64,000 nucleotides of DNA from the NCBI RefSeq assembly GCF_900177345.1, contig NZ_FWZT01000017.1:62001-126000 (forward strand), read 5' to 3'. This DNA is from Pseudobacteriovorax antillogorgiicola. Its GTDB lineage: Bacteria > Bdellovibrionota_B > Oligoflexia > Oligoflexales > Oligoflexaceae. The number at the start of each line of letters is the position of its first letter. Position 1 is the stretch's first letter. Below the pieces are notes generated by a model. It was not told where the DNA came from. It was given only the letters and a program-made list of their open reading frames with translations, and did no database searches. Position numbers and translations under genes: made by a program. Below, piece by piece: positions 22,572 through 37,571 of this stretch.

Positions 22572-23417
22572 TTAGAGATCCTTGCTGCCCCCACTCTCCT
22601 GAGCCCAAGTTAATAGCTCAAAATTCATCTGCATGGTCCGTTCAGGCTTGGCGTCGATGACCTTTGACTCTGTTGCTTTCAAAAACTCTAAAAACCTTTC
22701 CTGAATTTCTATCTGACTGTTGGCATCAGAACAGAATATCGCGGAGAATGAATAATTGTCACTTAGGTCGTGAGAAAGGATCTTATGTCTGCTGAGCTGT
22801 TGAATCTGATTGATCCAAGGTCGATAGAATTGTGAATTTTTTGAAAGGTGTAGATTTTTTACAAGCAATTCTGTCTTACAACCATCCACATGCACCAACT
22901 TCATCTCGTCTAGATTATCCATGATCCTATCTAATCGCTCACAACTTAAATGAAGATGTGTTGCCAGTCTTCTATAATCTTGGCGAAACCAAGGTATATC
23001 AAGGCAGATGTGAACAATCTGGTGGATGGGATCAAGGTAGTATTTGGCTTGATCCTTCTCGTCAAGAGGGCCATCGCCGAGGCGCAGATAGTCCTCTGTT
23101 CGCCTCATTTGTTTCTGCCGATCCTTAATCTTTTTAAATAACTCCTTTCGGCGTTCTTCTATTGAAGAACGATCGTACTCCAGAAGTAAATGTAAGTAAT
23201 CTTTATGGAACTTCGAAATAGGAAGGTGTTTACAAATCAAGTAAAGCTGATCATGACTCAGTTCTGCCTTGTGATTCATAACCTTTGACAGATAGGATTT
23301 CGGAATACGAGCTGATTCCGCTAGCTGCTGAAACGTGAGAGATTGCGAACTCTGTTTGCTTCGCTCCACTAACATCTTTAAAATTTTTCGATAGCAAAAA
23401 CCTGAAAACACGCTCAT
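22572..23417 (-). CDS. TIGR02147-family regulator (HTH + DUF4423)
   Basis: A 281-residue protein of the TIGR02147 family, found in multiple copies in Bdellovibrio- and Fibrobacter-like bacteria. The N-terminal helix-turn-helix (LTFQQLAESARIPKSYLSKVMNHKAELS) is followed by a basic linker and the DUF4423 core (YYLDPIHQIVHICLDIPWFRQDYRRLATHLHLS), then a long C-terminal sensor-like part. Presumed transcription factor. Start at 23417 is preferred because AGGGGA lies five bases before; an ATG five codons earlier has a poor leader. It is divergent from a metzincin protease gene 92 bases away, its likeliest target. Confidence 0.82.
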   Translation of the reverse strand: MSVFSGFCYRKILKMLVERSKQSSQSLTFQQLAESARIPKSYLSKVMNHKAELSHDQLYLICKHLPISKFHKDYLHLLLEYDRSSIEERRKELFKKIKDRQKQMRRTEDYLRLGDGPLDEKDQAKYYLDPIHQIVHICLDIPWFRQDYRRLATHLHLSCERLDRIMDNLDEMKLVHVDGCKTELLVKNLHLSKNSQFYRPWINQIQQLSRHKILSHDLSDNYSFSAIFCSDANSQIEIQERFLEFLKATESKVIDAKPERTMQMNFELLTWAQESGGSKDL

Positions 23418-23509
23418 AGTTCCCCTAATCATCTAGATCACTCGTCTTAATACTTCGTAGCAAGACACCTAGCCTACGGGCTACAAAAAGTAAAGTTCTG
23501 GAGGCAATC

Positions 23510-24637
23510 ATGCTCTATCAAACCCTAGCATCATCCACTCTGCTGGCAGCTCAAGTTATGGGCTCTTGGAGTAGTGGTGGTGGAAAAATACTACAAGATG
23601 AACGAAACCCGTGGTTCCTAAAAAGACATGGTTCTATTTACTATTGCATTGTCAACGAGCAGAGCAAGAGTGGCTTGAGTGACGATGAGGCAAATACTAG
23701 TATCCGAGAATCATACTTCTGGTGGCAGGATCAATTTCGCTTGGGCTCTTACCCCGAACAAAGCTATTACCTTGCAGAAAATGAGATTCAGCAAATTGCC
23801 TGCGATAACGAGGCTCACTCACCGGATATTATATTTCAATTTGCCTGGCTTAGTGAACGACAACGTGACTATCTGTCGTCACCTGAAAAATTCGTTTCTA
23901 TTGCCGTTCGCACATCTTATGACGCCCAACTGATGAAAGGCAAAGGCTTCATATATGTAAGGCCTCAAGGCTCGTTTCACGATAATAAGGCTCATATCAA
24001 TTGGCAAGATAAAGCGAAGCTAAATGCCGTGCTAAGCCACGAGTGGGGTCACGTTTTTGGGATTCCTCACTCAAATACCACGAACAAAGTCATGTCTCGC
24101 GATTTTGTAGAGAGCATAGTGCTAAACCAAAACGAGCTTCATTGGCAAAACAATGTGTTCATTGTTAATAAGAACCCCCTAGGGGATCTACCCCGTTTTG
24201 GTTGCTATGCAGACTTCACACGCAAGGATGCGGTATCCCACTTTTTTGGCATTTTCGAACCTTGGGACTGCCTTGGCTTCAAACTCAACTCTAAGTCTAT
24301 CGAAATTTGGATCTCTCATTCTCACAATGTGTTCCATGGAGGACGACCTATTGGAGAAATTCGTTTTCTTCATGAATCAAGGCAGCTAATTCCAGTAGAT
24401 CGCATTTGGTTTCCCGATCAGCAAACACAGTTTCAAGTCTCTGAACGGCGCTTTTGGGGGCCGGCATACAAGATTCGTGAAGTTTCCGGTACCTATCGCA
24501 AGTACGGGGATCCCTACCAACGGCCAGTCGGGCTCATTCTAGACCCTAGCAAAGACGATCCGTTATTTAGGGATCTTAAGATCTCTGGAATTCTAGATGG
24601 TCGTTTCATAGTCAATGTTTTGCATGAGCTAAAATAA
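23510..24637 (+). CDS. exported metzincin-type zinc protease
   Basis: A 375-residue protein. N-terminal hydrophobic signal (to about 18), then a matrixin-like domain with the complete metzincin zinc motif H177-E-W-G-H-V-F-G-I-P-H187 and a Met-turn candidate M195 (TNKVM). The C-terminal 170 residues are beta-rich and unassigned. Likely a secreted protease acting on peptide or protein substrates outside the cytoplasm. RBS TGGAGG before ATG. It is divergent from the TIGR02147 regulator, which fits local control. Confidence 0.82.
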   Translation: MLYQTLASSTLLAAQVMGSWSSGGGKILQDERNPWFLKRHGSIYYCIVNEQSKSGLSDDEANTSIRESYFWWQDQFRLGSYPEQSYYLAENEIQQIACDNEAHSPDIIFQFAWLSERQRDYLSSPEKFVSIAVRTSYDAQLMKGKGFIYVRPQGSFHDNKAHINWQDKAKLNAVLSHEWGHVFGIPHSNTTNKVMSRDFVESIVLNQNELHWQNNVFIVNKNPLGDLPRFGCYADFTRKDAVSHFFGIFEPWDCLGFKLNSKSIEIWISHSHNVFHGGRPIGEIRFLHESRQLIPVDRIWFPDQQTQFQVSERRFWGPAYKIREVSGTYRKYGDPYQRPVGLILDPSKDDPLFRDLKISGILDGRFIVNVLHELK

Positions 24638-27265: not shown

Positions 27266-27297
27266 AAGCTTCAAAGGGACTATGCCCTTTGAAGCTT
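27266..27297 (-). terminator. 13-bp-stem hairpin ending the exported-protein cluster
   Basis: Perfect 13-bp arms AAGCTTCAAAGGG / CCCTTTGAAGCTT with a 6-base loop, 13 bases after the stop of the last cluster gene. No U-tract on the minus strand, but stem strength and position mark it as the transcript end. Confidence 0.65.
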
Positions 27298-27310: not shown

Positions 27311-27661
27311 TCAGAGTTGAAAATAGCATTCGCTTGTTTGAGTAGAATCATCATTGACAGTAAAAGAGAACCTATAGGTCAGACTATTAGGACCCTTTTG
27401 ATCTTGATACCTCTTTTCAAGTTCTTCAACACCCTCCTTGGAAAATATATGAGACAAGTCCAGGCAATCTTTGCGTGTTAACCTTATTTGTTGACCCGGT
27501 CCAGGGCCTTCTGGAGTTTGCGGATCAACATTTGGAGGACTTTCTGGCCTTGGTTCAGCGGGATCGTCGTCTGACGAGCACGACAATATAGAACCAAAAC
27601 ATAAAACAATGCATACCAGGGTTTGTAGCCAGCTATCTGCTACTTTGAAAGATACCTTCAT
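27311..27661 (-). CDS. small lipoprotein, last gene of exported-protein cluster
   Basis: A 116-residue lipoprotein: lipobox ILSC (Cys28) after a hydrophobic segment, acidic and Pro/Gly-rich linker (about 30-58), then a small domain with two Cys (KDCLDL and SECYF) that could pair. Unrecognised. It lies 82 bases after the preceding cluster gene, same strand, and is followed by a strong hairpin. Likely anchored in a membrane on the periplasmic side as part of the VWA-containing module. Confidence 0.65.
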   Translation of the reverse strand: MKVSFKVADSWLQTLVCIVLCFGSILSCSSDDDPAEPRPESPPNVDPQTPEGPGPGQQIRLTRKDCLDLSHIFSKEGVEELEKRYQDQKGPNSLTYRFSFTVNDDSTQTSECYFQL

Positions 27662-27743
27662 AAGAGTCCCTCAATAGCCTATATAAGAATCTAAGAATAA
27701 ATTTCTATGCCCGATCACTCTTGAAAGTGAAAGGACTCTTTCT

Positions 27744-28832
27744 CTATAAGTCTTCGAAAGAAATAAATCCAGAGTTTAGGAAATCGGCCAACTTTTCATT
27801 GACCTCCTCTTCTATCTCCACTCTCCAATCTGAGCCATTGAGATAGCCCTCAAGAGCATTAACAACTCCTGACGACAAAGAGCCTGTATCATCGATTTCA
27901 ATCGAGGTGAAATCTACCGACACATCTGATACCTCTTTCAAGGTCTGGGAAAAAACTCCCTCCAAATTCGCTTCAAAATCAACTTTCAGATCAAGCCCGA
28001 AAGGGGCTATTCGAAAGCTCAGACTTCCGAAGAGGTTAGCATCACTCTTAGCCGAAAACTCTATATTATCGCCATTCTCATTAAACCGAGTACTCTTCTC
28101 ATCAATCTTGACCGTGTATTCACTATCTTCTATCTCGACATCAATCTTGAAAAACAGTGCGTCAACTTCAAAGCTGCCATCTAATTTACCGGTTTCGTGA
28201 AAAGTCGTTCTTTCAAAGAAAGCCCGATACCAGCTAGAATCAAATCCTGTTGGAGGAGTGTCATCTAAGAACATATTGCTTGGTAGCTGCAAAAATAGAG
28301 GTACTGAAATGGGAATGGTATCACCGTTGAAATCGATCAAATAGCGAACCGACCCTGTGATAATTTCTGCCTCTCCGCTGATTGCTTTGACGATCTCATA
28401 CTGGTTCCTATTTAATCGAAGATTGTAATAGAATAAGTCGATGTTGGGGCTCTTTGAGCTGGGAGTTAGGTTTAGATTGACAGTTCCGATGCTGTCTGAA
28501 ATCACCACATCAGAGTTAAGCTCTTGTATGGGAATAGGCAGGAAGAAGGATGCTGGATTATTCCTTCTGATATTTCGAATCTGAGGAATCGACTTCGCAT
28601 AATTTGGAGCTAAGATGAAGCGAAGAAGATAGGAATCATTGGTCTCTTTAACTATATATGCTTGATTTTTATAGAGAGACCATTCTTGAGGGATCGTATA
28701 GTAGGCAAGAGGGTCTTCCGTAGCCAATAGTACGATTCGTCTGTCCTGACCATAGATAAGATCATTAGCCTGAACAGCAAGCAATTTACTAGTGAAGAAC
28801 GTAAGAGATATAAATAGAATGTGCTTTAGCAT
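27744..28832 (-). CDS. exported protein of unknown function (cluster gene 6)
   Basis: A 362-residue protein with a signal peptide (cut near LLAVQA, about 20). The mature part is beta-rich without Cys. The C-terminal third alternates long beta strands (FEVDALFFKIDVEIED, SLSFRIAPFGLDLKVDFEANL) and ends in an amphipathic helix (VVNALEGYLNGSDWRVEIEEEV), a pattern loosely reminiscent of tubular lipid-binding folds; this is only a guess. The ATG at 28832 has AAGGTGA upstream; a GTG two codons earlier is less likely. A terminator-like hairpin separates it from the VWA gene. Confidence 0.65.
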   Translation of the reverse strand: MLKHILFISLTFFTSKLLAVQANDLIYGQDRRIVLLATEDPLAYYTIPQEWSLYKNQAYIVKETNDSYLLRFILAPNYAKSIPQIRNIRRNNPASFFLPIPIQELNSDVVISDSIGTVNLNLTPSSKSPNIDLFYYNLRLNRNQYEIVKAISGEAEIITGSVRYLIDFNGDTIPISVPLFLQLPSNMFLDDTPPTGFDSSWYRAFFERTTFHETGKLDGSFEVDALFFKIDVEIEDSEYTVKIDEKSTRFNENGDNIEFSAKSDANLFGSLSFRIAPFGLDLKVDFEANLEGVFSQTLKEVSDVSVDFTSIEIDDTGSLSSGVVNALEGYLNGSDWRVEIEEEVNEKLADFLNSGFISFEDL

Positions 28833-28842
28833 AATCACCTTA

Positions 28843-28879
28843 ATTTAGAAAAACTCACTAGAGATGAACTCCAGTGAGT
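28843..28879 (-). terminator. internal terminator after the VWA gene
   Basis: 11-bp arms with one mismatch (ACTCACTAGAG / CTCCAGTGAGT, 5-base loop) followed on the minus strand by TTTTTCT, between the VWA gene stop and the next start codon. It is a canonical intrinsic terminator, so downstream genes are either read at reduced level or have their own promoter. Confidence 0.7.
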
Positions 28880-28893
28880 CAGTTACAGCAAGA

Positions 28894-29682
28894 TTAGTTT
28901 CCAATAGAACATAGGCGAGGATTTATTGTGCAGGGATCAGGAGCACAGAAATCTGGATCATCCTCACATGGATCAGTATCCGTTTCACAATATGGGTTGT
29001 TTGGTCTAACTTTACAGGTAATTTCCACTGCCCTCGGAAACCAGTCCTGATAGATTGAGCTATAGATGCCCTGGAGCGAAGCAGGCTGCTCGGCAAAGTA
29101 TAAGTCCCCTCCCGATTTATCAGCCAAATAGCGGAGATCTTTAGAAGCCTGCGAAGATTGGCTCAACTGAAAGCCAACCGGATTGAACTCATATAGTCCA
29201 TCAATCGCATTTCGATCTGCTTGATCGATCATATTACGAACACTTCCACAGGCTGTATCGTCGCCGTCAGAGAGTACAACAGCCATTGCTGATGGACTAT
29301 TTTTGTATCTTTGCATAAATAGGTTTGCGTCTCGAATCGCACCACCTAAAGGAGTCCCGCCGGACGCTGTAATCGTCTCAATGAAGTTGCCAATTTCTTC
29401 AATATTCATTGTAAAGTCAAGGCTTCTAGTGATTGGCCTTGAGCAGGATGACCCAGAAAATGTTTTTACTGATACTTCGACTCCGGATAGAATCGCTTGA
29501 ATTGCTGTGGCAGAAGCTGCTTGTTTAGCAGCTTTGATCTTTTCTCCAGACATGCTTCCCGAAGTGTCGATAACTAGAACCATACTACCGATGGGATCAA
29601 ATAGACCTCCAAACTGAGCATAAGCACCAGAGGAAACTAAAAAACTTAGGCTAGCAGCCTTAATGAGCGATTTAAATTTCAT
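28894..29682 (-). CDS. exported von Willebrand factor A protein with Cys-rich tail
   Basis: A 262-residue protein. Signal peptide (to about 22, SSGAYAQ), then a VWA domain with an intact metal-ion-dependent adhesion site: D39-T-S41-G-S43, T110 in ASGGTPLG and D139 in LSDGDD. The tail (223-258) has six Cys in a D/P-rich setting, suggesting disulfides or a protein-contact knob. VWA domains bind protein partners through the metal; here it is periplasmic or surface-exposed. Its start overlaps the preceding gene's stop by ATGA, so translation is coupled. Partner unknown; the co-encoded exported proteins are the obvious candidates. Confidence 0.85.
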   Translation of the reverse strand: MKFKSLIKAASLSFLVSSGAYAQFGGLFDPIGSMVLVIDTSGSMSGEKIKAAKQAASATAIQAILSGVEVSVKTFSGSSCSRPITRSLDFTMNIEEIGNFIETITASGGTPLGGAIRDANLFMQRYKNSPSAMAVVLSDGDDTACGSVRNMIDQADRNAIDGLYEFNPVGFQLSQSSQASKDLRYLADKSGGDLYFAEQPASLQGIYSSIYQDWFPRAVEITCKVRPNNPYCETDTDPCEDDPDFCAPDPCTINPRLCSIGN

Positions 29683-30551
29683 AGAACGAGATCCTTTCCT
29701 TGTTCAAAATTGATATAAAATACATCGTAGCGATCTTTGTTAGAACTATCTCTATATTCAATGGTGAAAAAACTAGGAATGCGTACTCGATGGTCGACAC
29801 AGTATTCAAAGCCATTGATCAACCTTTGGCCCATAATCAGCCCATCTCCAGCAAAACGAAAGTCCTGAACAATACTTGGAAGCAGCTCACTTTGTTCGGA
29901 CCCTACCTCATCATTCCAGGTACCTTCTCTTAAAAGCACTTGTCCAAAGTCTTTGGCGATCACAGACTTAACTTGCTGAACATCAAAGTTTTGGTAAAGC
30001 GTATTGGGAACTCCGTCCACCTCCTTCTCGTAGACATTCCAAAGATAAGTGACAAGGCGATCTTTACTTTGCCAAAGCGGAGATGAAATCTCGTTCATAT
30101 CCTCATTGATCACTCGAATTCTGTCCTGAATCTGAAGAACTCGTTGCCATTGTCTATCTGTGTATTCCCCATCACTGCTTTCAAGAATACTAATCAACTC
30201 AACATCGAGTTGCTCAGCTTCCTTTCTAAGAGATGGAATGCTTTCGTAGATGTTATAAAGACGATCGCAATTTAGTGGTGCAGAGCCTGGAAGGGAGTCC
30301 ACCTTTGCACGGCCAGTATGGTAGATTGGCTCTAAAATGTCTGAAGGCAGAACCTTAAAGACATCCACTTCGATAGGACCACTAAAAAGAGCTTCTAAAG
30401 CTTTTTTCCGATCATCAGCGATACCTCTAATTAGTCTCGATCGAAGTTCTTCGATCTCTTTTTCAACTTTTCGAGCGTAAGAATCATAGTCGTAAGCCAT
30501 CACTTGGCCCGCAACACCAAAGCACAGGGCAGCACTGATAAGTCTTTTCAT
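29679..30551 (-). CDS. exported helical protein (cluster gene 4)
   Basis: A 290-residue protein. Signal peptide MKRLISAALCFGVAGQVMA; the start at 30551 is fixed by this and by AGGAGA upstream, while a longer frame starts inside the previous gene. The mature N-terminal two-thirds are helical and charged (ARKVEKEIEELRSRLIRG, VQQVKSVI); the C-terminal part is beta-like with FFTIEYRDSS. Two Cys. No recognised family. It lies 11 bases after the preceding gene and overlaps the VWA gene by 4 bases. Confidence 0.68.
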   Translation of the reverse strand: MKRLISAALCFGVAGQVMAYDYDSYARKVEKEIEELRSRLIRGIADDRKKALEALFSGPIEVDVFKVLPSDILEPIYHTGRAKVDSLPGSAPLNCDRLYNIYESIPSLRKEAEQLDVELISILESSDGEYTDRQWQRVLQIQDRIRVINEDMNEISSPLWQSKDRLVTYLWNVYEKEVDGVPNTLYQNFDVQQVKSVIAKDFGQVLLREGTWNDEVGSEQSELLPSIVQDFRFAGDGLIMGQRLINGFEYCVDHRVRIPSFFTIEYRDSSNKDRYDVFYINFEQGKDLVL

Positions 30552-30562
30552 GATGCGTTCTC

Positions 30563-31600
30563 CTATCGACCAGATCTTGCTTCTAGCCAAGGAAGGCCCA
30601 ATTCTGTCAGTGATGAACCAAATTCCGATGAAAGAATCTCAACTCGATTTTCAGAGAATTCGTATCTATTAAGGTAGTAGCTAAACGGGCCCGTTCGTAA
30701 AACCATTCGAGCGACAAATTGCCCTTGGCTCACATACGATCGAATTGCTAAGTCGGGAATATATCGTTTCGCTTTTATACAGGTGGCTGATAGATCATTG
30801 CAGCTATCAACCAGCTGACTATTGCGAGCCACTAGGTATTGAGTGGAGTCAACATTGGCAATATCGAACATGCTGAATAGATCGACAGGCTTTAACTCTC
30901 GTGAAAAATCTACATCTGCATTGATGATGAAGCTCTCAAAATTCCCTTGGTCATTGGTGCTCTGAATTTTTATCCACGGTTTCAGGCCAGAGGCATCGCC
31001 TGGATTCTCAATGGACAGTGCTAGAGCTTGGATGTTTTGCGTATCTCCAAGTTTCCTATCTAAAATCTCGGTGTTATCGTTGTTCAATCCTAACCGGGCA
31101 ATTTCATGCCTATCGTATGATGGTGGCACCCCTGGAATTTCCTCCAAGAACCAAAAGAAAGCCTTGCGACCAGCAATATTGGAATAGACTCCAGCGCGCG
31201 ACTCCTCTGTTCCACGGATAAAATAGTCTTTTACCGCGTGAGGCACCTTTAAACCAACTCTAGCTTCTAAAGCAATTGTAAAAGATTTTGGAATGTCACA
31301 TTCAACTTGAACAGTTTCAAGTTTCTTATTGGTCGGGCTAATGATTTCAAACGAAGCGGAGAGCTTATCTCTGGAAGATAGATCCAGCTCGAAACCTTGC
31401 CCCTTGAAATTCCACGAGTCACCATTGTCTCTAAAAAAGTCGTATCGACTTGATAGAAGTTGGGGGTTTATGGAAGGTCTAACAAACTTTGCAAAATCAA
31501 CACACTCCTGGGTGTTAATATGAGACCTTTCAGGGCTCGATGAGCCAAAAACCGTTGGGGATATTGCCAGCAGCCCCAAGGTATAGAATAGATTTTTCAT
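30563..31600 (-). CDS. exported protein of unknown function (cluster gene 3)
   Basis: A 345-residue protein with a signal peptide (cut near TVFG|SSSP, residue 19). The mature domain is beta-rich with Cys in QECVDF, VECDIP, DSCNDL and SATCIK, which could make two disulfides. No motif recognised. It overlaps the upstream coiled-coil gene by 4 bases (ATGA) and lies 11 bases before the next gene, so it is co-translated with both. Confidence 0.68.
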   Translation of the reverse strand: MKNLFYTLGLLAISPTVFGSSSPERSHINTQECVDFAKFVRPSINPQLLSSRYDFFRDNGDSWNFKGQGFELDLSSRDKLSASFEIISPTNKKLETVQVECDIPKSFTIALEARVGLKVPHAVKDYFIRGTEESRAGVYSNIAGRKAFFWFLEEIPGVPPSYDRHEIARLGLNNDNTEILDRKLGDTQNIQALALSIENPGDASGLKPWIKIQSTNDQGNFESFIINADVDFSRELKPVDLFSMFDIANVDSTQYLVARNSQLVDSCNDLSATCIKAKRYIPDLAIRSYVSQGQFVARMVLRTGPFSYYLNRYEFSENRVEILSSEFGSSLTELGLPWLEARSGR

Positions 31601-32133
31601 TGTGACTCCATGAGTTCAACTAGTTTTTCGTATGCTTCACTACCATGTTCATCTTGCGCCTTCATGTAAGCGATATAGGCTTCGTTCATCTTCTCCTTGT
31701 AGAGTACGACTTGCTCCTCTAACTCTTTATATTTCTGATCTAAAACTAGATAGTCTTGCTCATTTTCCTCCATCGCAAGCTGCTGCAGTTTGTCGCTGAT
31801 GTCCCTCATATCTTGGACAAGTTCGATCACTTCATTTTGACGAGACTCTAGCTCTCTCGCTTGCTTTGAAACCTTAACTTTGAAGTCATCTATGATAGCT
31901 TGGTAGTCCTGAGGGAGCTCTTGCTGCTTTGCCTGCTCCATAATTTTGTTAAGTCGATTCTTGTCGATAGTTTCAACAACTTGCTTAAGTTCTGGCACAT
32001 TTTTACTGGCTTCTGAGATAGTCTCTGCAATATCTTTCTTTGATTCCAGCTCCTCTGAATCACTAAACCAAATATGAAAAGACATTAAAGAGACGAGCCC
32101 TATCATGCCTAGGCTTGCATAAACTTTCTTCAT
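31597..32133 (-). CDS. membrane-anchored coiled-coil protein (cluster gene 2)
   Basis: A 178-residue protein: one N-terminal membrane anchor or signal (about 5-22), then almost pure charged helix with coiled-coil heptads (about 85-165, ARELESRQNEVIELVQDM ... YKELEEQVVLYKEKM). Probably a periplasmic rod or oligomerisation element of the module. No signal-peptidase site is obvious, so it likely stays in the inner membrane. It overlaps the next gene by 4 bases. A strong hairpin separates it from the first gene of the cluster. Confidence 0.7.
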   Translation of the reverse strand: MKKVYASLGMIGLVSLMSFHIWFSDSEELESKKDIAETISEASKNVPELKQVVETIDKNRLNKIMEQAKQQELPQDYQAIIDDFKVKVSKQARELESRQNEVIELVQDMRDISDKLQQLAMEENEQDYLVLDQKYKELEEQVVLYKEKMNEAYIAYMKAQDEHGSEAYEKLVELMESQ

Positions 32134-32151
32134 GGTTCGATCCTATAACAT

Positions 32152-32173
32152 CTGGGCCTTTGTCAAGGCCCAG
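32152..32173 (-). terminator. strong intergenic hairpin inside the cluster
   Basis: Perfect 9-bp GC-rich arms CTGGGCCTT / AAGGCCCAG with a 4-base loop, in the 48-base gap between the first and second cluster genes. No U-tract follows, so it looks like an mRNA-stabilising or attenuating hairpin that would keep the first gene's message in excess. Confidence 0.55.
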
Positions 32174-32181
32174 TTTGAAAA

Positions 32182-33945
32182 CTATTCAAAAAATATTTCA
32201 ATGGTACTAGAGCTTGGCTCCACCGTGAAGCCTGTGTAGTCGTAATTGCGGTAGAACTTAAAGTCACGATTTACAGTAACATTCCGTCCGGCACTCGTTG
32301 ATCCGAAGAGCTGCGGAGCATTTTGGATTGCAATCGCTCCAATTTGACAATATGGATTGGTTCCACATAGGCCTTTCATAGCGCTACCAGCATCATTGAA
32401 GAATCGTTGGTGCTCGGTAGGAAGTACCGCTGGAGAGGTATCTACTTTGTAAGAGAAACCAGAGATTTGCGTCAAGTACTCAGCTGCGATCTCTTGAGAG
32501 AATTTCTGCCGAAGGTCCTCAACATTGATACCATTGCCTGGACTTTCAAACACTGTACAAGAAATACCGGCCTTTTGGATATCAGTAAAGGTTTCAGATG
32601 ACTTCTTTTTCCTCCAGAATAGAAAACCACTGTTCTTCTTGGTCGACAAGAAGCTTTGGAACTTCGCACCGTCCAAAGTGCACGACACCTTTGTAGGCTC
32701 AGTTCTTAGGTAGTAGGAATAGTTTAATGCAACCGTCTGAGCCAGAAGGCTTGTGTTACGGCGCGTGAAGTCGCTGAATACGAGGGGTTGGACAGATGAC
32801 TGCACTGGGCCATACTTAGGCACTGAGACCAAGGCTGTTCTTAATGCTGGGATGGCACACAATGCCCCTTGAGAAATGGGAATGGAAATAACTCCCGCTC
32901 CATTGTTCTTAGGAGTATTAGTTTTTACCTTAACAGCCATGTCTTCGCCCGTTTGAGGGTCCTTCGCTGTAAGTGCTGAGCTGACAGTTGCATCATCAGT
33001 TAGGTTTTCATTTAGAGGCGCACCACCAAAAGTTCCAGTCTCTATAGTAGGCAGGGGAACTGAATTGCTTGGCAGTGGCACAGGACTTTCAGGCGGAAGA
33101 GTATCTGGAGCGGGACTTGGATTTGGGACAGTGTTGTCAACTAAGTCTCCTAGCGGGTTCAATGTCTGTTCAGGCTGACGCTCTAAGGAAAATGAAATCT
33201 GAGAACGAATATCAAAAATCGGTAGCCGTCTCACATTGAGGTTTCGATAGTCAATATTTCTTGATCCAAGGGCGTTCACTACATTTTGTAGCTCTGCCTC
33301 CTCATTTCCCCAAACGGTCCAGGCTGCATTACCTTTACCAACGACTTTATTCGATTGAGTATCAGTATCAAGTTTTGCAACCTTGAATGTTTTGGCAGCC
33401 GTTTCATTAAACGTCGCGAACAGGTTTGAAAGTGCTGTAATGTTGTTAATCTTTATTGAAAAGGTTGGATCAGATAGATCTGTCTCGCTAGCTTCTACTA
33501 GAGTATTAGCCAACCTATCCAGAATCGTCTGATAGCGCACATAGTTACCGTACTTCATATCAAAGTATGGTGAGAAAGGAGATTGAGCATAGGTTTTAAG
33601 CTCTTCCGATGAGATGTTGTCTATGTTGCTGGGATAAACATAGGTTGTCCTAAACGAGGCTTCATAAGCATTACAGTTCGGCGCGTCTGTTAGCTGGAAG
33701 AGTGATCCAACCCTTCGTTTATTAGCTGGACTCACATAGATAGTTTGGTCCACTTCGCTATCAGAGAATATAGCGACCCCCTTCAGGACTTCGCTTTCGG
33801 CTCTTGCCTTAGCTTGGAGTGTACTGAGAATGCTTACTTGATTTGAATTCGATGGAATTCCATAGCTCACTGATGAGCCTAAGCTTGCACTCGCAACTAT
33901 AGATGCAACAATCTGCCGTTGAGACTTCTTTGGAATGAACTTCAT
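32182..33945 (-). CDS. large exported protein with Pro-rich linker (cluster gene 1)
   Basis: A 587-residue protein, first in the cluster. Signal peptide (basic n-region MKFIPKKSQRQ, cut near SVSYG, about 29). An N-terminal domain to about 255 is followed by a Pro/Ser linker (about 273-300) and a C-terminal domain of about 285 residues with a very basic patch (FWRKKK) and Cys in ALCAI, VSCTL, ISCTV, GLCG and PYCQ. No family recognised. It ends IEIFFE. Two domains joined by an extended linker suggest a structural or adhesive envelope protein. A long AT-rich region upstream probably carries the cluster promoter. Confidence 0.7.
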   Translation of the reverse strand: MKFIPKKSQRQIVASIVASASLGSSVSYGIPSNSNQVSILSTLQAKARAESEVLKGVAIFSDSEVDQTIYVSPANKRRVGSLFQLTDAPNCNAYEASFRTTYVYPSNIDNISSEELKTYAQSPFSPYFDMKYGNYVRYQTILDRLANTLVEASETDLSDPTFSIKINNITALSNLFATFNETAAKTFKVAKLDTDTQSNKVVGKGNAAWTVWGNEEAELQNVVNALGSRNIDYRNLNVRRLPIFDIRSQISFSLERQPEQTLNPLGDLVDNTVPNPSPAPDTLPPESPVPLPSNSVPLPTIETGTFGGAPLNENLTDDATVSSALTAKDPQTGEDMAVKVKTNTPKNNGAGVISIPISQGALCAIPALRTALVSVPKYGPVQSSVQPLVFSDFTRRNTSLLAQTVALNYSYYLRTEPTKVSCTLDGAKFQSFLSTKKNSGFLFWRKKKSSETFTDIQKAGISCTVFESPGNGINVEDLRQKFSQEIAAEYLTQISGFSYKVDTSPAVLPTEHQRFFNDAGSAMKGLCGTNPYCQIGAIAIQNAPQLFGSTSAGRNVTVNRDFKFYRNYDYTGFTVEPSSSTIEIFFE

Positions 33946-34654: not shown

Positions 34655-36265
34655 ATGATCCCGATAGAGACATTACACAATCCGGGAGAAATTGTTTTGA
34701 ATCTCATAACCACCGTATTTCTGTGTTGCATGACTTTGGTCGTCGCATCCTGCTCAAAAAAGTCGGGTGATAGTGTGGATGAGACTCCGACCACCACAGT
34801 CGCTGATACGAATGACATCGAAGAAAATCAGACCGGTGCCCAAGGCGAGCCTGCAAGCAAAGCTAACATAACACCAGAAGAAATCGCAGCTCTTGAAGAC
34901 ATGATGAGCGATACAAGCTCAGATGTAGAAAGCGATGTGGACTTCCCTGGACTCAGTGCCATCGATGTTGTCTCTGGGGTGTCCCTTGAAATCCATTGGG
35001 ACCAAGTTGCTGATGTATCGCGATATATAATTATTCAAAGCACAGATGGCCAAGACTCTGTTATTGACGTGGCTGAAAGTAACCAGAGTAGCTACGTAGT
35101 TACTGGTCTAAGCCCAAACACCTCCTACTCATTCAAGGTTCGTATTTTGGATACCAGTGGTCGCATTGATAGCAACAATGTGGTGGTAACTGCAACGACT
35201 GCCACCTTTTATCCCCCGACTATTATTTCCGCCAGTATCAGCCCAGGTGTCCATCGCATGACCTCAAGCCAGGATCAAATTATCATCACTCTTAATTTTG
35301 ACTACGATATCACTATCAATGATTCACCCAGGATTCCAATTACGATCGGCGATCGTACTGTCTATGCCCTCTACAACGCAGGAGATGGCACAGATACGAT
35401 CACCTTTGCTTATGATGTTGAAAGTGATGACATGGACGTAGACGGCATAAGCGTTGGTTCCATCGACCTCACATCAGGTAGCTTAGATGGCCCGGGAGGT
35501 TCGCTATCATCGGGGAGTCTGAGTATCGACGGTTCCGCAAGCCTTGTCGTTCCTAACAGCACCCGTCTCTGGCTCGATGCAATGCAATCAAACTCACTGG
35601 ACCTGACAGGCACTTCCGTAAACACATGGAACGATCGATCACTAAATAGCTATTCCGTGTCCGCAGCGTCTGGCGAAGAGCCATTCTTCTTGAGCGACGA
35701 TGGCGATGGTCGCCCTGGCATCGACTTCTCTCTCGGCAGTAAGTATCTTCGAGGATCGGCTGTGATTTCTGGGAGTGTCGCTCGACACGTATTCATAGTG
35801 GCAAGACCTTACTCTCTCGGTAGCGGCACGACCAATTGTGCCTTCGCTTTATCAGGTAACGAAAGCACCAATGGTACCGGTTACGGTATCTTCATGGAGA
35901 GCCCTGGTGGTAGTAACGGACTAGCGCTTAGAGTCTCGGGCAATCGTGTTATGAATCATGAGATGGATACAAGTAAACCTTCCGTACTTTCATTATCCTC
36001 TGCCGCTAATTCGGATGTCTTGGATGCTAGCTTCCATGTCAACGGCGAAGCCATCACATCTGAGCAAAGTTCTTCCTCAGCAAGCCTAAGCACAGAAACC
36101 CTCTCCGGTGTTATACTTGGTGGATTTTCTGTTAAAAGCGCAACCCCTAACAACGCCTATGACTATAACGGCATTATCTACGAAGCCTTGGTTTTTGAAG
36201 ATGTGCTTAGCAGCAGTGAGCGCCAGCATGTTGAGCAATACCTATCAGACAAGTGGTCTATTTAG
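34655..36265 (+). CDS. lipoprotein with FN3 and LamG-like domains
   Basis: A 536-residue protein: lipobox VASC (Cys33), an acidic low-complexity linker, a fibronectin type III domain (about 105-190; GVSLEIHWDQVADVSRYIIIQS ... VVTGLSPNTSYSFKVRILD), a beta-sandwich middle, and a C-terminal concanavalin/LamG-like domain (about 300-536, LWLDAMQSNSLDLTGTSVNTWNDRS ... GIIYEALVFEDVLSSSERQHVEQYLSDKW) typical of surface carbohydrate- or protein-binding proteins. The ATG at 34655 has GGAG only two bases away and an acidic n-region; a TTG near 34696 with a GGGAG leader is an alternative start. Confidence 0.72.
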   Translation: MIPIETLHNPGEIVLNLITTVFLCCMTLVVASCSKKSGDSVDETPTTTVADTNDIEENQTGAQGEPASKANITPEEIAALEDMMSDTSSDVESDVDFPGLSAIDVVSGVSLEIHWDQVADVSRYIIIQSTDGQDSVIDVAESNQSSYVVTGLSPNTSYSFKVRILDTSGRIDSNNVVVTATTATFYPPTIISASISPGVHRMTSSQDQIIITLNFDYDITINDSPRIPITIGDRTVYALYNAGDGTDTITFAYDVESDDMDVDGISVGSIDLTSGSLDGPGGSLSSGSLSIDGSASLVVPNSTRLWLDAMQSNSLDLTGTSVNTWNDRSLNSYSVSAASGEEPFFLSDDGDGRPGIDFSLGSKYLRGSAVISGSVARHVFIVARPYSLGSGTTNCAFALSGNESTNGTGYGIFMESPGGSNGLALRVSGNRVMNHEMDTSKPSVLSLSSAANSDVLDASFHVNGEAITSEQSSSSASLSTETLSGVILGGFSVKSATPNNAYDYNGIIYEALVFEDVLSSSERQHVEQYLSDKWSI

Positions 36266-36283
36266 ACATTGACATCCTTACCC

Positions 36284-36310
36284 GTCATTTGGCTTCCATG
36301 ATCAAATGAC
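36284..36310. terminator. hairpin at convergent gene ends
   Basis: Perfect 8-bp arms GTCATTTG / CAAATGAC with an 11-base loop overlap the last codons of the minus-strand HEIAH gene and follow the plus-strand lipoprotein stop. Possible bidirectional transcript end; no U-tract. Confidence 0.35.
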
Positions 36311-37571
36311 CTTGGCTCTCGAAGAATTTGTAGGCCCCAGGTGACACCCTTATCAGGGCCTTGGGGTCGAGGTGATAGAGGGCAAAGCTCTCCGCAAATG
36401 ACTCGGAAATCGACACTCTACCATAGCGCGTTGGGCCATTGCTCACATCAGGAATGCTCGCGTACTTCGCTAAAATTGGGTTTCTTTCACTAAACTGACT
36501 AAACTCCTGCTGACTCACAAGATCAAAGGGATTCACAGTGCGAAGAAGATCGACTTGTTGATTGCTGAGGCGCCCCTTGATCACATCAAATATCTTTCTC
36601 TGCTGCTGCCACCGAATGAATACTTCATGGCTTTCTAAAATATAGCGACTGGCGATAGCATGGGCTATTTCATGAAGAAAGACCATACTAGAGAGCAGAA
36701 TAGGGCTTTCCGGCTCACCTATAAAGCTGCTTTTTCGTTCCACTGCATTGTCTCCGACCCGAATCACAGCAATGTTATTGAATCGCTTATAGATCGCAGC
36801 ACGACGAGGATCTCTTTCGGCTACTGACTTCACCCGTTCAAAGACAAGACCCTGCAAGTTTCGAAGCTCTCCGGGAGAAAGCTTCGATAGCGCAAGATCT
36901 AGGCTTTGGAGCTGAAAGATATTCCAACGGCTGGTTGTCTCTTTCAGGCGAATTCCACGATAGGTGTCTTCAATATAGGCTTTTCCTGCTCCTATTGACT
37001 TAAAATTCCGACCTCGAAACAGCTTCGGGTTTCTGACTGCTTTTACCTCAATACGATTGAAGTTATTGGTCACTGTGATGGCCCAGTAGCGGCCTGAGGT
37101 ATCTTGCAGAATCGTATCCAATTCAAATCCTCGATAGTTTGCCTGACTTATCGCTTTTGCTGCAAAAAGTACGGTTTCTGGCACCCCTTTGAATGACGAA
37201 AATGAAGGATTGTTGAAACGCAGTACTTTCTTACCTTGAGCATAGACAATCTGGCGAATGCCATGCTTGCGGCAAGACTGCCTTAGATCCTTCACAAGAT
37301 TGCTTCTGAACCTGGGTCCCACCGGGTTGAAGGTATAAACCACGCGGCTATAGAGAGGTGTCCTACCAATTGGCTTGTTGGGACGTAACATCTGGAGTTT
37401 TGGATCGACTCCCCGAATCACTGCCAGGCGCTGTTTCAAGGTTTCCATGTGCTGGCGAATCACAGCAAACTGCTGCTCCCATCGACCCAGTTCTAAAGCA
37501 GGATCGATTTGACTATGCAAAGAATTTGTGAATGCTAGCAATAATACTAGGCAAGCCATGCGATATATCAT
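36285..37571 (-). CDS. exported HEIAH zinc-metallopeptidase-like protein
   Basis: A 428-residue protein with a signal peptide (about 1-20). A basic N-terminal half carries no motif. The C-terminal half has H300-E-I-A-H304 in MVFLHEIAHAIASRY, and about 100 residues later SESFAESFALYHL, a plausible third ligand glutamate and helix, as in gluzincins of the anthrax lethal factor/Mlc-type class. Likely a periplasmic or secreted zinc enzyme. It is monocistronic, divergent from the desaturase gene. Confidence 0.72.
   Translation of the reverse strand: MIYRMACLVLLLAFTNSLHSQIDPALELGRWEQQFAVIRQHMETLKQRLAVIRGVDPKLQMLRPNKPIGRTPLYSRVVYTFNPVGPRFRSNLVKDLRQSCRKHGIRQIVYAQGKKVLRFNNPSFSSFKGVPETVLFAAKAISQANYRGFELDTILQDTSGRYWAITVTNNFNRIEVKAVRNPKLFRGRNFKSIGAGKAYIEDTYRGIRLKETTSRWNIFQLQSLDLALSKLSPGELRNLQGLVFERVKSVAERDPRRAAIYKRFNNIAVIRVGDNAVERKSSFIGEPESPILLSSMVFLHEIAHAIASRYILESHEVFIRWQQQRKIFDVIKGRLSNQQVDLLRTVNPFDLVSQQEFSQFSERNPILAKYASIPDVSNGPTRYGRVSISESFAESFALYHLDPKALIRVSPGAYKFFESQGHLIMEAK

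Follow-up and report, generated by a model that had tools for sequence, protein, structure and literature searches.

Seven consecutive genes on the minus strand of the window (the whole stretch of DNA analysed here, 64,000 nucleotides long) are a real, tightly packed operon for predicted cell-envelope proteins. Comparison with related genomes indicates that they very probably belong to a conserved, undescribed envelope module found across Bdellovibrionota and in the related phylum to which the window belongs. The invariant centre of the set, as judged from its recurrence, is the 587-aa gene (gene 1, family A), and the VWA protein encoded by gene 5 is best read as a local extra, not as the core. 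Several families for which there is no Pfam or NCBIfam model travel together in these two related phyla. Envelope genes in this group are largely unannotated, so the role of a defined set with one evident anchor gene can be put to a direct test.

Organization of the gene cluster

The operon occupies positions 27311–33945. All seven ORFs proposed by the sequence-only reading are present and tightly packed, as follows.

Gene 1 (family A), 32182..33945, minus strand: 587 aa, exported; homologues in other genomes
Gene 2, 31597..32133, minus strand: 178 aa; N-terminal transmembrane anchor and coiled coil
Gene 3, 30563..31600, minus strand: 345 aa, exported; four Cys
Gene 4 (family D member), 29679..30551, minus strand: 290 aa, exported, helical; conserved C, W and ExC
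Gene 5 (VWA), 28894..29682, minus strand: 262 aa, exported; intact MIDAS and six-Cys tail; accessory, in this cluster only
Gene 6, 27744..28832, minus strand: 362 aa, exported, beta-rich; residues 32–170 conserved
Gene 7, 27311..27661, minus strand: 116 aa; probable lipoprotein with two further Cys
Inverted repeat after gene 7, 27266..27297, minus strand: perfect 13-bp stem, 6-nt loop, no T tract

From gene 1 to gene 7, the distances between neighbours are 48, −4, 11, −4, 61 and 82 bp, so that exactly two pairs (genes 2/3 and 4/5) show the ATGA overlap described earlier. Two start codons were reassigned: gene 4 begins at the ATG at 30551, which has a good ribosome-binding site, in place of the TTG start of the ORF list (303 aa), and gene 6 begins at the ATG at 28832. 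The hairpin said to close the set does have its perfect stem; lacking a T tract, it is not a classical intrinsic terminator. A promoter and terminator scan gave nothing above chance level.

Export was called by a hydropathy scan and inspection, which together amount to a crude test. Signal-like hydrophobic N-terminal segments were seen in genes 1, 3, 4, 5 and 6, a single N-terminal transmembrane segment in gene 2 and a lipobox-like ILSC at the N-terminus of gene 7, supporting the claim that every product carries a signal peptide, membrane anchor or lipobox. The same N-terminal hydropathy test was passed by 22 of the 49 other window ORFs of at least 110 aa (∼45%), which makes seven exported products in a row suggestive, not proof. 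The exported run is unremarkable by itself; what gives the cluster its significance is the synteny kept in other genomes. Export signals are found throughout the A operons.

Several genes in the surroundings were recorded. Upstream of the cluster and on the same strand, 36285–37571 (minus) encodes an exported 428-aa protein that carries a HEIAH metallopeptidase motif and matches PF07737 weakly (ATLF; E 0.0038, below the cut-off). Between the two, 34655–36265 (plus) encodes a lipoprotein-like protein of 536 aa with an fn3 domain, transcribed away from the cluster. A matrixin-type metallopeptidase (PF00413, 2.7e-6) lies at 23510–24637 (plus), and a small exported protein adjoining an A cluster elsewhere (L031, 9925–10548) carries an HExGHxxxxxH-like motif resembling that of the matrixin-type gene. 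Genes for TIGR02147-family regulators occur near A operons in the window (22572–23432), in L062 (6016–6876) and in L118 (8445–9248), being divergent from and directly adjoining the A gene in the latter two; these are possible candidate regulators of the gene set.

Family A and its distribution

Family A proteins start with a signal peptide, followed by an N-terminal domain, a coiled-coil region and a C-terminal domain bearing the motif C(G)xNxYC; the family alignment shows two invariant Cys and another two that are almost invariant. The window copy has a shortened coiled-coil region, a Pro-rich linker, the motif in the form CGTNPYC in its C-terminal domain, and six Cys. Profiles for the family were built stepwise (A1, A6, A10 and A13). 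Gene 1 matches the family profile with an E-value of 5.8e-83, being itself among the 28 rows of that profile, and its membership is also seen in independent phmmer and tblastn matches.

Within the class of the window, family A was found in 10 of 58 genomes, and these 58 are also all the sampled genomes of its phylum; two of the relatives counted there, C4 and C8, are further copies from the genome of the window itself. In the sister phylum, to which the genome G325 belongs, it was found in 50 of 369 genomes, a few of the weakest of these being coiled-coil matches in ORFs longer than 1200 aa that are to be discounted, and 27 of the 144 genomes in the class of G325 carry it. Up to three A loci occur in one genome. 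Outside the two phyla, profile matches of family A are to coiled coil only. The gene set is present in G325 (L089) and in G427 (L114). The A operons of G325 (L089, 5336–12676) and of G433 (L119, 2692–10555) lie in the cell-division gene cluster, directly behind ftsI, as judged from translations. In g25 genomes, family A genes at L058 (8380–10079) and L060 (7619–9319) are either divided between two ORFs or interrupted by in-frame stops, so that some A copies look broken.

A single-sequence search with gene 1 found two other genomes among 144: G027 (contig CAIYRB010000147.1, locus L016) and G006 (contig SEDW01000547.1, locus L017). In a scan of genome contigs, gene 1 as a single protein gave no match and the alignment recovered two metagenome bins. 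The clusters of G027 and G006 share the order 1-2-3-7-6, with all genes on one strand; in G006, gene 1 is cut by the contig end. Gene 1 is 27–38% identical to its two counterparts. Homologues of gene 6, which was found in 3 of the 58 genomes, are present in L016 (4e-18) and L017 (3e-12); gene 3 has a homologue in L016 (E 7e-5) and a positional counterpart in L017; and genes 2 and 7 have counterparts at the same place and with the same layout in both. Neither gene 4 nor the VWA gene is found in these two closest clusters, and single-sequence searches of the 58 genomes of the class gave no close counterpart of either. Gene 5 has a single relative in the class at E ≤ 1e-6, an ordinary VWA domain that lies on a different contig and shares 27% identity.

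Partner families of gene 1

Clustering of the genes in the neighbourhoods of 36 A operons defined four partner families, with the following layouts.

Family B: ∼320 aa, exported
Family C: one N-terminal membrane segment, a linker and a helical or coiled-coil tail
Family D: helical, with an ExC motif
Family E: small lipoprotein

Family B is present in 25 of these operons, C in 15, D in 10 and E in 8. The complete order A-B-C-D-E is seen in L114, L115, L116 and L118, and in other operons (e.g. L123, L124, L126 and L128–L131) two A genes flank B. Conserved Cys come in even numbers in A, B, D and E. An independent test, in which all 144 genomes of one class were searched for B, gave 16 matches, every one of them within ∼0.7 kb of an A gene. 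That all 16 fall in the 27 A-bearing genomes of the 144 corresponds to p ∼2e-14 (hypergeometric, by hand, assuming random placement), a value that is too optimistic given the kinship among the genomes.

Comparison of the window genes with these families showed that, at the level of sequence, gene 1 belongs to family A and gene 4 to family D. With a D profile made from eight proteins and excluding gene 4, gene 4 itself scored an E-value of 8.9e-7 and the next window ORF 1.4; gene 4 was also aligned in alignment A12, and hhalign against family D gave 44%. Gene 2 has the layout and place of family C, with no match to the C profile and 1.1% in hhalign. Gene 7 likewise has the layout and place of family E, with no E profile match and 46% in hhalign, in the signal segment only. 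No window ORF matches the B profile (best E 1), and an attempt to detect family B in gene 3 or gene 6 was unsuccessful.

The VWA protein and other accessory genes

Gene 5 encodes a genuine VWA domain, as the sequence-only reading had recognised. It matches PF13519 (3.1e-12, 47.5 bits; cut-off 27) and PF00092 (1.6e-10, 41.9 bits; cut-off 23.8), the MIDAS is intact (D39-T-S-G-S, T110 and D139) and six Cys follow residue 220. The further proposal that the cluster is built around this protein fared differently: no other examined cluster carries a VWA gene, and it is the 587-aa gene that recurs instead. A neighbourhood scan and Pfam scans of operon members found the VWA gene absent from all other sampled A clusters, and neither of the other two A loci in this genome gave a PF00092 match. 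The neighbourhood scan, effectively one for the window sequence plus a MIDAS motif, has lower sensitivity than Pfam; its outcome agrees with the Pfam scans of operon members and with the PF00092 result. Of the co-occurrence expected for the two genes, the half concerning the 587-aa gene held, in that it recurs with exported genes, and the half concerning the VWA gene did not, as no other examined cluster contains it.

Operon neighbours with recognisable domains vary by locus. A neprosin gene follows the A gene in L057, a C25 peptidase gene stands at the end of the operon of the C8 copy in the window's own genome (L062; PF01364, 9e-48), and LRR proteins are encoded in L126 and, weakly, in L123, all by Pfam. 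The VWA gene is missing from these other clusters; we take its product to be one accessory among several that can replace each other. Most A operons contain no accessory gene with a known domain. Downstream of the C4 copy (L061, 3376–5838) are genes for two related Cys-rich exported proteins, one of which has a weak match to a Hint module (E 0.0034).

Searches for known families and folds

None of the six non-VWA window products matches a known family in Pfam, NCBIfam or PHROG, in line with the sequence-only reading, which recognised none of them; PHROG returned VWA and coiled-coil matches only. For families A and B, Pfam, NCBIfam and PDB yield coiled-coil matches and nothing further, those of family A being to generic coiled coils. 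Weak matches of gene 2 in three libraries were likewise set aside as coiled-coil noise. Structure predictions with AlphaFold2 used only window sequences and related loci, which kept the alignments shallow: the model of gene 1 was uninformative (pLDDT 33.6), and for gene 6 only the domain of residues 23–189 was modelled, mostly with pLDDT of 50–80. A PDB fold search with the gene 6 model gave nothing convincing (best E 0.021).

Literature searches found no description of the gene set. Judged by sequence searches, whose reach stops short of distant fold relationships, it appears to be new as a set. The idea of an undescribed envelope gene set is supported by conserved co-occurrence, dozens of genomes having a relative of the 587-aa gene within a cluster of exported genes.

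Possible functions of the module

We tentatively propose, at a little less than an even chance, that the products of families A to E make up an envelope-spanning complex whose task is to hold a variable accessory protein on the cell surface or to present it there. Family C would sit in the inner membrane and reach into the periplasm through its linker and coiled coil; A, B and D would be disulphide-containing extracytoplasmic subunits; and E would be an outer-membrane lipoprotein. The accessory would be the VWA protein here, which may bind a partner through its MIDAS, and LRR proteins or peptidases elsewhere. The conserved order, the tie of B to A, the assignment of gene 4 to D, the export signals, the even Cys counts, the layout of C and the variable operon genes with known domains are consistent with such a complex. 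Against it stand genes 2 and 7, whose likeness to C and E is confined to layout, the lack of a window B, the failure to recognise an outer-membrane barrel or energy-supplying part, the many A operons in which no accessory gene has a known domain, and structure predictions that gave no help.

The inner-membrane anchor of C and the lipoprotein layout of E would also suit a structural scaffold that tethers the inner and outer membranes, the VWA, LRR and peptidase genes being unrelated neighbours that share its promoter. The many A operons with no accessory gene of known domain point the same way. However, a patchy distribution (27/144 and 10/58 genomes) with up to three loci per genome is unusual for a housekeeping structure, and the accessory genes are tightly coupled to the operon in the window (by a 4-bp overlap) and in L062. 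We regard a scaffold, which together with a secretion system is the chief rival of the presentation complex, as unlikely on balance.

A bolder form of the presentation complex is distinctly doubtful: A to E could be an undescribed envelope-spanning machine that presents or exports interchangeable surface proteins in cell–cell contact, including that of epibiotic predators. Pseudobdellovibrio exovorus JSS and Ca. Bdellovibrio qaytius are named as epibiotic predators in PMC11656739. A function specific to predation was rejected: only 2 of ∼20 listed g324 (Bdellovibrio-like) genomes carry family A, yet many genomes of the window's class do. Present in only those two g324 genomes and in many others, the set is not a general predation marker.

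The peptidase genes that follow A genes in L057 and L062 would fit a secretion system dedicated to moving peptidases, VWA and LRR proteins across the outer membrane, but no ATPase, channel or outer-membrane barrel, nor any energy-supplying part, was recognised among the operon genes, and each part has an export signal of its own; this makes such a system improbable. The version first put forward, in which the VWA MIDAS is the centre of an adhesin or contact apparatus, draws on the intact motif and the Cys-rich tail, and is rendered more improbable still by the absence of the VWA gene from every other examined cluster, the two closest included. A chance run of unrelated exported genes, for which the ∼45% background of the export test might speak, is scarcely credible given an order conserved across genera and a B gene beside A in 16 of 16 cases.

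Comparison with known systems

The proposed presentation complex shares single features with several known systems. Gene 5 resembles VWA domain proteins (PF00092, PF13519) in scoring above the Pfam cut-offs with an intact MIDAS, but it is one of seven genes only, and the set is independent of it. Its VWA stretch also matches the sortase-target VWA proteins of TIGR03788 in part; the match is confined to that stretch, and its 33.5 bits lie far under the curated cut-off of 551.65, so that gene 5 falls outside that family. C25 peptidases are associated with the Type 9 secretion system, whose core parts include the SprA-type outer-membrane channel. The C25 gene that ends the C8 operon recalls this system, whereas the window operon has no C25 gene, searches of the libraries linked neither family A nor family B to a known secretion part, and no Type 9 core part, such as the SprA-type channel, was found among the operon genes scanned with Pfam. 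TonB- and GspC-like proteins are bitopic. Family C has no sequence match to them, and no energising partner genes were seen; the likeness is one of layout only, namely one N-terminal membrane segment, a long linker and a folded or helical C-terminus.
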